Assembly (NCBI GenBank): GCA_019115445.1
Contig: DXDP01000136.1
Coordinates: forward strand, 1-32,026
From: Candidatus Nocardiopsis merdipullorum
GTDB taxonomy: Bacteria > Actinomycetota > Actinomycetes > Streptosporangiales > Streptosporangiaceae
Direction: 5' to 3'
Length of the DNA: 32,026 nucleotides
The position numbers were made by a program, and so were the translations under genes. A model generated the notes under the pieces. It was not told where the DNA came from and ran no database searches. It saw nothing but the letters and a program-made list of their open reading frames with translations. Of the stretch, positions 7,937 to 16,917 are shown piece by piece; position 1 is the first letter of the stretch, and the number at the start of each line of letters is the position of its first letter.

Positions 7937-8038
7937 TTCGCAGTTCGGTGAGGTCGGTGATCCGATCCATCAGGGGGTCTCGGGCTCCGTGTGGGGCTCG
8001 AGTCCTCCCCCGGAAAAGGGGCAGACCCCAGGCTCTCT

Positions 8039-8052
8039 CCCTCCGCGGAGGG
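8039..8052. repeat. 14-bp perfect palindrome CCCTCCGCGGAGGG
   Basis: Seen directly in the nitrobindin-ygfZ intergenic region. Confidence 0.6.
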
Positions 8053-8140
8053 GCCGGTCGGACGAGTTCCGGCAGCCCGGGGTCCGGGTGTCCGTCTGGT
8101 ATTCGCGTCGGGCTCAGCCGCGCGAACGCATGGCGTCGCC

Positions 8141-8179
8141 CTAGCGGACGGCCACCTCGCAAGTCCTGAGATCACTCAT
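8141..8179 (-). CDS. Candidate 12-aa small ORF (MSDLRTCEVAVR) behind a near-perfect Shine-Dalgarno
   Basis: Minus strand reads AAAGGAGGTGG (8188-8198), TCCAGAAG, then ATG AGT GAT CTC AGG ACT TGC GAG GTG GCC GTC CGC TAG. Confidence 0.45.
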   Translation of the reverse strand: MSDLRTCEVAVR

Positions 8180-8317
8180 CTTCTGGACCACCTCCTTTCC
8201 TGCGTGCCCCTGACAGTACGCCCCGGGGAACACGTGGGGCAAATGTTTTTCTCTCGACGAAATGGCAGTTCAGCACCGTACTCTCGACCGGTTTCCGGGG
8301 CGGCTAGTCTCGGGAGT

Positions 8318-13968: not shown

Positions 13969-14274
13969 TCAGGCGTTGACCTGGATGTCCACGACCTTGC
14001 CGACCTCGGCGGTCACCGGGAACTCGCCGGTGTAGCCCTTCGAGGCAAGAACCCGTACCTTCCACGCGCCATCGGTGGCGAAGAAGCGGAAGGTTCCTTC
14101 ATCACCTGTGGCGACCTCACCGACGAAGTCGTCGGAGTCGCTCAACAGGCGAGCGTAGGCTCCGCGCAGCGGTTGTCCGTCACGTGTCACCGTGCCCTGG
14201 ATGACGGCCTGGTTGCCCGCGTTGACATCGGCCAGTGCGACGCCGCCCTCGGGTGCTCCACAACTGTCACTCAC
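13969..14274 (-). CDS. DUF1416 (SseC-like) protein
   Basis: 101 aa: NAGNQAVIQGTVTRDGQPLRGAYARLLSDSDDFVGEVATGDEGTFRFFATDGAWKVRVLASKGY; stop/start overlap with sseA (GTGA). Confidence 0.88.
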   Translation of the reverse strand: MSDSCGAPEGGVALADVNAGNQAVIQGTVTRDGQPLRGAYARLLSDSDDFVGEVATGDEGTFRFFATDGAWKVRVLASKGYTGEFPVTAEVGKVVDIQVNA

Positions 14275-15116
14275 TTGGCTTCAGCCTCCCCCACCTCGAC
14301 CGGGACACCTCGAAGAGAACCGTACTCGGACCAGGAACCGTCGTAGTTCTTGACGTTCTCCAGGCCCAGGAGCTCACGCAGAGCGAACCAGCTGTGCGAG
14401 GAACGCTCACCGATACGGCAGTAGGCGATGATGTCCTTGTCCAGGTCCACCCCGGCCTCGGTGTACAGCTCGCGCAGTTTTTCGGGGCTCTTGAAGGTGC
14501 CGTCCTCATTGGCGGTCTTGGCCCACGGGATGTTGCGCGCGGTCGGAATGTGCCCGCCGATCTGCGCCGCCTCCTGGGGCAGGTGTGCCGGGGCCAGCAA
14601 CTTGCCGGTGAACTCGTCGGGGGAGCGGACGTCGACCAGGGCCTTTTCGCCGATCGCTTCGACGACCTCGTCGCGGAAGGCTCGGATCGAGGTGTCCTGC
14701 TCCTTGGCCTTGTAGTCGGTGGCGGCCCGCTCCGGAACCTCGGTGACGAGCTCGCGGGAGTCCAGCTCCCACTTCTTGCGTCCACCGTCCAACAGGCGAA
14801 GGTTCTCGTGACCGTAGAGCTTGAAGTACCAGTAGGCGTAGGCCGCGAACCAGTTGTTGTTGCCTCCGTAGAGGATCACCAGATCGTCGTTGGCGATGCC
14901 CTTGGTGGACAGCAGCTTCTCGAAGCCGGCCTTGTCCACGAAGTCGAAACGGACCGGATCCTGGAGGTCCTGTTTCCAGTCGATCTTGACGGCACCGCGG
15001 ATGTGGCCCTTGTCGTAGGCGGACGTGTCTTCGTCGACCTCGACAAGGACCACCTTGTCGTCGTCCAGGTGAGCCTCCACCCAGTCGGCGTCCACTAGGA
15101 CGTCGGAGCGGCTCAT
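14271..15116 (-). CDS. sseA: Thiosulfate sulfurtransferase (two rhodanese domains)
   Basis: MSRSDVLVDADWVEAHLDDDKVVLVEVDEDTSAYDKGHIRGAVKIDWKQDLQD and active-site loop YCRIGERSSHSWFAL; AGGAGG upstream of the ATG at 15116. Confidence 0.92.
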   Translation of the reverse strand: MSRSDVLVDADWVEAHLDDDKVVLVEVDEDTSAYDKGHIRGAVKIDWKQDLQDPVRFDFVDKAGFEKLLSTKGIANDDLVILYGGNNNWFAAYAYWYFKLYGHENLRLLDGGRKKWELDSRELVTEVPERAATDYKAKEQDTSIRAFRDEVVEAIGEKALVDVRSPDEFTGKLLAPAHLPQEAAQIGGHIPTARNIPWAKTANEDGTFKSPEKLRELYTEAGVDLDKDIIAYCRIGERSSHSWFALRELLGLENVKNYDGSWSEYGSLRGVPVEVGEAEAK

Positions 15117-15453
15117 GGGGAACCTCCTGTGTTCGTGGTGTGGTGCCGCGTGTACTTGATCGAGCCCGCCGGGCACACGGCTGCCCGGGAGGCGAGGGAC
15201 AGAACTGGGATGTCGGGGCGGTCACCGCGCCGACCCACCGTGCTCGCGATCGTCGAGGGAAGGGCCGAGGTCACCACGCACACGAACGAAACGGTCCCCG
15301 TACGGGTCCGTCGGTGTGATTCGGAAAAGTCGGAGGCGCGTCGGCACCCCCCGGATTCGGTGACCTGCATGGCGTTGTGTCCCCAGCTGCGTGCACGGTT
15401 GTCGAGGGCTTGCTGGCACGGCGGAGGCGCAGACGTTCAGGCGCCCGTCCGCC

Positions 15454-15528
15454 CTATGGACACAGACAGAGCGCGCCGGCGACGCGGCAGAAGTCCACTG
15501 CCCGTCGCTTCGTCAGATATGCGCGCAT
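15454..15528 (-). CDS. Cys-containing leader peptide upstream of sseA (MRAYLTKRRAVDFCRVAGALCLCP)
   Basis: Read by hand on the minus strand: ATG CGC GCA TAT CTG ACG AAG CGA CGG GCA GTG GAC TTC TGC CGC GTC GCC GGC GCG CTC TGT CTG TGT CCA TAG. Matches the actinobacterial leader pattern (R..VD..RVA.ALC). Confidence 0.8.
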   Translation of the reverse strand: MRAYLTKRRAVDFCRVAGALCLCP

Positions 15529-15578
15529 CAAGGAAGTCACGCCTTCGACGGTACCCGCCGCAGCAGTGCGCTGTCACT

Positions 15579-15598
15579 GGTGTGTTTGATCACACACC
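15579..15598. promoter_or_regulatory. Palindromic operator-like site GGTGTGTTTGATCACACACC
   Basis: 7-bp arms around TTGATC, about 50 nt upstream of the leader-peptide ATG. Confidence 0.4.
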
Positions 15599-15638: not shown

Positions 15639-15974
15639 TCAGCGGATCGCTTCGCCCAGGGCCGCGATCACGTCGACCTTCCGGGGTTGTCCGCTCGCTC
15701 TGCGCACCACACGGCCTTCCGCGTCGAGGACGAAGACGGTGGGGGTTTGGGTGATGGCAAGGCGACGCACCAGGTCGAGACGGGACTCGGCGTCCACCTC
15801 CACGGAGGCGACCCCGTCGACCATCTCCGCCACATCGGTCAGGATGCGGCGCGTGGCCCGGCAAGGTTGGCAAAAGGCAGAGGAGAACTGTACGAGCGTG
15901 GCCCGGTGGCCCAACTCGCCCCCGATCTCCTCGATCGTGAGGGCATCACCCACGGTTCCTCCTTCCTCGGTCAT
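15639..15974 (-). CDS. Thioredoxin-family protein
   Basis: LVQFSSAFCQPCRATRRILTDVAEMVDGVASVEVDAESRLDLVRRLAITQTPTVFVLDAEG (CxxC motif CQPC). Confidence 0.88.
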   Translation of the reverse strand: MTEEGGTVGDALTIEEIGGELGHRATLVQFSSAFCQPCRATRRILTDVAEMVDGVASVEVDAESRLDLVRRLAITQTPTVFVLDAEGRVVRRASGQPRKVDVIAALGEAIR

Positions 15975-15979
15975 CCGAA

Positions 15980-16678
15980 TCAGACCGCCTCGGAGCCCAT
16001 GAGCGGCACGTCCTCTCCGGTGCCCGAGATCCGCATCCCGCCGGACACGGCTTCCAGGTCGGTGATCTGCAGCCCGAAGGGAAGTTCGGGGACCTGGACG
16101 CTGAAGGCGAGCATCTGGGTGACGGTCTCGCTCATGGCGGAGGGTGCGTCACCGATCTCGACGTCCACGGGTGTGACGTGCAGGGTGTCGCCGTCGACGG
16201 AGAACTCGGCGCCCGAGGACACCGTGGTGCTGATGTTCATCTCGGGGATGGCCAGTTCGCCGTTGATCCGGGGCTCACCGTCATCATCCGTGGTGATGGT
16301 GATGCCCTCGGGGAGCTGGGAGTTGAGGAAGGTGTAGGGCACCACGGCCGAGCCGTCGAGTTGGCCGGCGGTCACCTCGGGCTGGGAGAGCAGTTCGGCC
16401 AGGGGTGCTTCCACGTCACGGGCGGAGGCATCGATCTGCTCGAAGGTGTGGCCGTCCACGGTCGCGCTGTCGGAGTCGATGTTGATCTCGGAGTAGGTGC
16501 CGCCGAGTGCCTGGGGCAGGAAGGCCCAACCCTCGATGGACACCTCCGGGTCCTCGGACATGCCCAGGTGCTGCGCCGACTGTTCGGCGATGGTGTTCTG
16601 GGCGAAACTTCGCGCGGCGATGTCGGCCACCACCACCACGGCCAAGAAGAACAGGAGAACGACAAGGAACTTACGCAT
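15980..16678 (-). CDS. DUF2993 / LmeA-like phospholipid-binding protein
   Basis: N-terminal TM plus QNTIAEQSAQHLGMSEDPEVSIEGWAFLPQALGGTYSEINIDSDSATV; ATG at 16678. Confidence 0.85.
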   Translation of the reverse strand: MRKFLVVLLFFLAVVVVADIAARSFAQNTIAEQSAQHLGMSEDPEVSIEGWAFLPQALGGTYSEINIDSDSATVDGHTFEQIDASARDVEAPLAELLSQPEVTAGQLDGSAVVPYTFLNSQLPEGITITTDDDGEPRINGELAIPEMNISTTVSSGAEFSVDGDTLHVTPVDVEIGDAPSAMSETVTQMLAFSVQVPELPFGLQITDLEAVSGGMRISGTGEDVPLMGSEAV

Positions 16679-16917
16679 CGGAAATCCCAGCACACTTTCT
16701 CTCGCGCCGGCGCGCCTCTCGGCTGGGTCATCCGGCCGGCCTCGGTCACACGCCTTCGAAACCCCAGCGGGTGGCGGTCATGAAAAACCCGTGGGGAAGG
16801 GTACTTCACCCAGGGTACGACGCTGCTCGACACGTACTTGTTGTGCGTATCGGCACAAATTCATCAGTTCGAGATTCTTCGCCTGAACCGGACGGTTCCA
16901 CCGTTCGGCGGCCTGGT

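Follow-up and report, generated by a model that had tools for sequence, protein, structure and literature searches.

In mycobacteria, a leaderless, cysteine-rich small open reading frame (sORF) upstream of cysA2/Msmeg_5788 shows ribosome occupancy and sequence conservation, and a role in attenuation has been suggested for it (Shell 2015, PMC4633059). Cysteine-responsive attenuation by mycobacterial sORFs is credited to Canestrari 2020 in the passages of PMC9031893 that cite this work, and the corresponding passages of PMC13236596 term the attenuation translational. The original prediction for the locus described here, which invoked an Ms5788A-type actinobacterial Cys leader and such attenuation in mycobacteria, agrees with these citations (PMC9031893, PMC13236596) and is right in kind, as the leader occupies the same position as the mycobacterial cysA2 leader (PMC4633059). 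We analyzed this locus within the window, i.e., the whole stretch of 32,026 nucleotides from Candidatus Nocardiopsis merdipullorum. Coordinates of all features are collected in Table 1.

The minus strand of 15454-15528 encodes the peptide MRAYLTKRRAVDFCRVAGALCLCP, exactly the 24-codon translation that had been claimed, and the predicted distance of 337 nt between the leader stop and the sulfurtransferase ATG (15116) was likewise reproduced. The proposed start codon, ATG 15528, had to be given up: at the position of this Met, relatives carry Thr or Leu (TSAYL, LSAYL), whereas an in-frame GTG (15540) four codons upstream is invariant (36/36 sequences) and lies 7 nt behind the end of a -10 hexamer, TACCGT. 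Because of these three observations, the leader ORF most likely starts at GTG 15540, and would comprise 28 codons (15454-15540) with non-contiguous Cys residues at positions 18, 25, and 27. The leader belongs to the Cys leaders of actinobacteria grouped under NF042934 (NCBIfam, putative leader peptide), scoring 35.8 bits in its 24-aa and 35.3 bits in its 28-aa version at a curated cut-off of 27 bits. Scores against NF042933 (Ms5788A family Cys-rich leader, equivalog) amount to 42.2 bits (24 aa) and 43.3 bits (28 aa), just under the curated equivalog cut-off of 45 bits, which only 5/60 relatives pass, none of them within the genus. A run of consecutive Cys codons, characteristic of the mycobacterial cysA2 leader, is absent from the 28-codon leader. 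As it falls short of this cut-off and has no poly-Cys run, the leader was not classed among the Ms5788A equivalogs; it very likely works in the same way. An Rfam scan of the window returned no element at the leader, its only match being located elsewhere, at 8016-8205 on the minus strand (RF02471, Ms_IGR-5 actinobacterial sRNA; 88.1 bits, gathering cut-off 45).

Table 1 Features of the leader region and its operon (positions within the window)
Feature	Position	Strand	Remarks
LmeA-like gene	15980..16693	-	upstream; completes synteny
Thioredoxin-like gene	15639..15974	-	upstream of leader
CRP-like inverted repeat GTGTGATCAAACACAC	15580..15595	-	just upstream of -35
Predicted promoter	15548..15577	-	-35 GTGACA 15572-15577, 18-nt spacer, -10 TACCGT 15548-15553
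Cys leader ORF MTSLMRAYLTKRRAVDFCRVAGALCLCP (most likely extent)	15454..15540	-	28 codons, GTG start, TAG stop; family score and conservation
24-codon version of leader ORF (original prediction)	15454..15528	-	internal ATG; start not conserved
P1 helix, 5' arm	15521..15529	-	within first codons of leader; one mismatch in window
P2 hairpin inside leader (GCGACGGGCAG / CTGCCGCGTCGC)	15479..15508	-	holds Cys18 codon TGC
P1 helix, 3' arm GCGCTCTGTC	15465..15474	-	holds invariant TGT codon of Cys25
Leader end TGTGTCCATAG	15454..15464	-	complementary to relic RBS CTGGGGACACA 15376-15386, one mismatch
Hairpin directly after leader stop	15418..15452	-	without U-tract
Relic RBS and start of lost DUF4395 gene, CTGGGGACACAACGCCATG	15368..15386	-	
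85-codon ORF from relic start	15113..15370	-	TGA overlaps sulfurtransferase ATG
CysA2-type thiosulfate sulfurtransferase (sseA in original prediction)	14271..15116	-	own RBS AGGAGG
DUF1416 gene (PF07210; SseC in mycobacteria)	13969..14274	-	overlaps sulfurtransferase end

The same promoter geometry is found at Streptomyces loci (GGTGACA, TACGAT, 7 nt, ATG). With GTG 15540 only 7 nt past the -10 box, a leaderless transcript is predicted for the 28-codon ORF, resembling the mycobacterial situation. The center of the CRP-like repeat GTGTGATCAAACACAC is positioned ~47 nt upstream of the predicted start, and relatives harbor TGTGATCCAGGCCAC followed by the -35 box; a regulator of the Crp/GlxR type would be our guess for this site.

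Genes are arranged in the order LmeA-like, thioredoxin-like, leader, CysA2-type sulfurtransferase, DUF1416, so that the operon formed by the latter two genes directly follows the leader. This is the arrangement of Rv0817c-Rv0814c in M. tuberculosis. The sulfurtransferase had initially been named sseA; its scores against the PDB are 443 bits for 3aax/3hwi, CysA3 (3aax) and CysA2 (3hwi) of M. tuberculosis, compared with 296 bits for 3hzu (deposited as SseA), which makes cysA2-type preferable as a name. A block at ~15117-15150 on the minus strand (ACACgcGACAcC...CAGGAGGTT), immediately ahead of the sulfurtransferase RBS, is conserved in the genus and is possibly an internal promoter.

Conservation of the peptide in close relatives, on which the original prediction had staked its case, was found throughout: the leader is present in 37/37 genomes of the genus, including that of the window itself. 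Among 80 loci chosen by similarity of the downstream sulfurtransferase alone, with the leader playing no part in the selection, 77 contain LTKRRAVD[LF]CR upstream. Leader-bearing loci span Nocardiopsis, Thermobifida, Actinomadura, Streptosporangiaceae, and Streptomyces, and the three loci lacking a recognizable leader belong to Streptomonospora (L044, L046) and a metagenome assembly (L104). The nearest sulfurtransferase relatives of the window, judged by best matches, are N. kunsanensis and N. alkaliphila. Across the class, the amino-acid sequence of the RRAVD.CRV core is conserved, and leaders ahead of different genes have related cores (VDL.R). The leader is short and the region full of spurious ORFs, as would suit a chance ORF in GC-rich DNA; the family score, genus- and class-wide conservation, promoter spacing, and the codon constraint described below contradict this explanation, and with the NF042934 match and the counts of 37/37 genomes and 77/80 loci we reject it as having a negligible probability. 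Three further leaders of the group are located in the same genome (L003, L004, and L005 on contigs C36, C379, and C401), followed by genes for an FMN reductase, a nitrite/sulfite reductase, and a dicarboxylate/amino-acid-type symporter; TGT is also present in the L003 and L004 leaders, in LC or IC context.

Synonymous conservation across relatives, the check proposed along with the original prediction, is strict at the first two Cys codons. All distinct leaders from these loci use TGC for the first (67/67) and TGT for the second Cys codon (67/67), the latter at a baseline of 8.8% TGT among 148 Cys codons in the neighboring sulfurtransferase and DUF1416 genes. This TGT is preceded by CTC in 60/67 distinct leaders and recurs at the same place in other families of the class, whose leaders were picked by family search. 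Folding suggests a reason for this constraint, as it pairs the leader segment GCTCTGTC with the leader's own 5' part (helix P1). As 5' partner, Actinomadura and Streptosporangiaceae have GACAGAGC, including ACA (0.3% of nearby Thr codons), and Streptomyces has GCGACAG, including CGA (1% of Arg codons); in Thermobifida the partner is TGACAGA, and in Nocardiopsis it is GACGAGCGCG, which pairs with one bulge. Compared with synonymous recoding of the 5' part, P1 reaches lineage medians of p about 0.001-0.015 in Thermobifida, Actinomadura, Streptosporangiaceae, and Streptomyces, the lineages with an uninterrupted Watson-Crick helix of 7-9 bp. The bulged Nocardiopsis version has a mean z of -2.8, with the window's own copy being weak (z -1.0). 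RNAalifold recovers P1 unprompted and independently in two lineages. Very few double compensatory changes were identified, hence the case for P1 is built on complementarity that is conserved although codons and frames differ, and not on classical covariation.

These data also bear on nascent-peptide arrest, in which LTKRRAVDxCRVA itself would act inside the exit tunnel, its ligand being cysteine or a sulfur compound. Class-wide conservation of the RRAVD.CRV core and the occurrence of VDL.R cores ahead of different genes are in line with such a peptide function. The 5' half of the peptide nevertheless varies between lineages while the RNA pairing is maintained, synonymous sites are constrained too, and both the proximity of the Cys codons to the stop and the published Cys dependence favor codon sensing, making arrest by the peptide improbable.

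Further RNA pairings were analyzed inside and downstream of the leader. P2 was not retained as a selected RNA structure, since z reaches a modest value of about -2 in Nocardiopsis and Actinomadura and one of about -1 in Streptomyces, and the stability of the window's whole 5' region is not unusual (z -0.83). The hairpin directly behind the leader stop recurs in Streptomyces and Streptosporangiaceae with arms that change yet stay complementary (GCGGAT/ATCCGC, GCGGAC/GTCCGC, GCGGGC/GCCCGC). Together with the attenuator-like appearance of P1 and the alternative pairings, and with a leader:RBS pairing not being seen in Streptomyces, this hairpin could indicate transcriptional attenuation, where translation of the leader controls termination in a Rho-dependent manner or via the post-stop hairpin, as in trp-type systems. 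Against this stand the Nocardiopsis hairpins, which are no more stable than shuffles (mean z -0.18), the missing U-tract, and the absence of any terminator-like site, i.e., of an intrinsic terminator, on the minus strand of the window; a 2:3 alternative pairing that is visible by eye in Nocardiopsis does not form in the modeled ensemble. We therefore consider control of termination rather unlikely at this locus.

The 337-nt gap behind the leader is explained by a lost gene. In 6/24 genus relatives tested, a gene for a DUF4395 membrane protein (PF14340) is inserted between leader and sulfurtransferase, as it is in most Actinomadura, Streptosporangiaceae, and class-level loci examined, with a start usually 55-140 nt past the leader stop. 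It is missing from 18/24 genus relatives tested and was not found in the window's genome (assembly ~85% complete); in Streptomyces, the leader lies directly ahead of the sulfurtransferase. Both flanks of the DUF4395 gene are left in the window's gap, one comprising start and RBS (99 nt, ~73% identical), the other the end adjoining the sulfurtransferase (55 nt, 89% identical). Naming the sulfurtransferase as the target was thus incomplete, since the ancestral first target of the leader would be the DUF4395 gene, now lost here. The 85-codon ORF opening at the relic start was rejected as a remnant DUF4395 protein, having no DUF4395 similarity left. A similar overlap of stop and ATG is present in some relatives (L016, L121, L124, L126, L130) and lacking in others, which renders coupling through this overlap speculative.

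Complementarity between the leader end and the DUF4395 RBS was detected in several lineages. Where Nocardiopsis genomes contain DUF4395, the RBS of this gene, CTGGGGACA, is complementary to the final leader codons plus stop, TGTCCCTAG; the Streptosporangiaceae leader end GCTGCCTGAGG is likewise complementary to CCTTCAGGAGC, and complementarity extends over 8-9 bp in the lineages L010 and L011. In all four, the leader end pairs better with its own RBS than with those from different lineages, the Nocardiopsis values for leader end plus stop with the own DUF4395 RBS being -16.9 vs -11.4 kcal/mol. No such preference was found in Actinomadura, Actinoallomurus, and several single lineages, and no leader:RBS pairing was seen in Streptomyces. 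The pairing is not general (by-lineage mean 0.51) and, compared with synonymous shuffles, not significant. An anti-Shine-Dalgarno function of the leader tail toward DUF4395 was hence rejected as a general rule and retained for the four lineages, and pairing of the tail with the sulfurtransferase RBS was discarded, being no better than after synonymous recoding (median p 0.49). Partition-function modeling for Nocardiopsis shows the DUF4395 RBS closed in free RNA (mean accessibility 0.08), and a modeled ribosome at the UGU codon raises its accessibility to 0.21. The stop is TAG in all 24 distinct Nocardiopsis leaders and TGA in Streptomyces, Actinomadura, and most Streptosporangiaceae leaders; from the sequences, the choice of stop in Nocardiopsis and Streptosporangiaceae fits complementarity to the downstream RBS.

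Loss of DUF4395 raises the question whether the leader is vestigial here, having regulated DUF4395 and no longer affecting a sulfurtransferase that relies on a separate RBS and perhaps also on a separate promoter. The absence of DUF4395 from this genome and from most genus relatives tested, erosion of the regulated RBS in several genus relatives without DUF4395, and the conserved block just ahead of the sulfurtransferase RBS would be expected if this were so. However, leader, promoter, and P1 are still conserved in species without DUF4395, and the Streptomyces leader directly precedes the sulfurtransferase. A vestigial role thus seems doubtful to us.

We consider it probable that a leaderless, translated uORF senses cysteine supply for the cysA2-DUF1416 operon. 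Transcription would start at GTG 15540, where 70S ribosomes would initiate. Given charged Cys-tRNA, the ribosome would complete the leader and depart, upon which the leader would refold (P1, P2, and leader end with downstream RBS) and close the first downstream RBS. When Cys-tRNA is scarce, the ribosome would stall at the UGU codons beside the stop and occupy the leader end, and the RBS would stay open. The regulated RBS would be that of DUF4395 in most relatives outside Streptomyces, while in the window's genome it would now open the 85-codon ORF, which ends in overlap with the sulfurtransferase ATG. With DUF4395 gone, control of cysA2 would therefore have to proceed via translational coupling or an effect on the transcript. 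It counts against this model that the sulfurtransferase of the window's genome has a strong RBS of its own, 337 nt from the leader, and that the RBS to be regulated is orphaned. The lineage-restricted leader-end:RBS pairing, the ordinary fold of the window's 5' region, its weak P1 copy, and the scarcity of double compensatory changes in P1 speak against it as well. Translational attenuation, as judged from sequence comparison, appears the likeliest mechanism in the DUF4395-bearing relatives; how control would reach the sulfurtransferase in this genome is less evident. Sensing of Cys-tRNA charging and tuning of expression, as originally proposed, would follow by homology to the mycobacterial leaders; by the same analogy, the leader would very probably allow the cell to raise sulfur-gene expression when cysteine is short.

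More tentatively, the actinobacterial cysA2 leader may function as an RNA switch no less than as a peptide. Pairing with 5' codons of the same leader, which differ in codon and frame by lineage while forming the same helix, would fix the second Cys codon as UGU; in several lineages, the last codons and stop would serve as anti-Shine-Dalgarno sequence of DUF4395, the operon's true first target that was repeatedly lost in Nocardiopsis. Constraint on the UGU codon, helix P1, and pairing of the stop codon with the RBS were not found described in the literature searched, a scope that leaves Canestrari 2020 and D'Halluin 2023 aside. These elements are specific and mutable, and lend themselves to deciding between translation and transcription as the level of control; they would also tie DUF4395, an unknown membrane protein, to cysteine-controlled sulfur transfer. 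The range of the cysteine-sensing uORF of mycobacteria would be widened to include Nocardiopsis, Streptomyces, Actinomadura, and those relatives that share the operon.

With respect to known systems, the leader resembles trp/ilv-type attenuators in being short and containing amino-acid codons, in its alternative pairings, and in its post-stop hairpin, and differs from them in that no terminator with a U-tract was found here. The predicted likeness to the ermC/ermB translational attenuators consists in closure of the following RBS by the leader end and its opening by a stalled ribosome; unlike in ermC/ermB, the signal would be Cys-tRNA supply instead of an antibiotic, the transcript would be leaderless, and the pairing is confined to some lineages. 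From NF042934 (cis_reg_atten), the family under which it is to be filed, no difference was found. With the mycobacterial cysA2/Msmeg_5788 leader (NF042933, leader_Ms5788A) it shares the peptide core, the location between a thioredoxin-type gene and cysA2, and Cys codons near the C-terminus, and a leaderless start is predicted for it too, whereas its Cys residues are spaced (C-x-C) without a poly-Cys run, its score of 42-43 bits stays below 45, and a 337-nt gap derived from the lost DUF4395 gene separates it from the sulfurtransferase. The leader is therefore a further example of a known device and the positional equivalent of the mycobacterial cysA2 leader.
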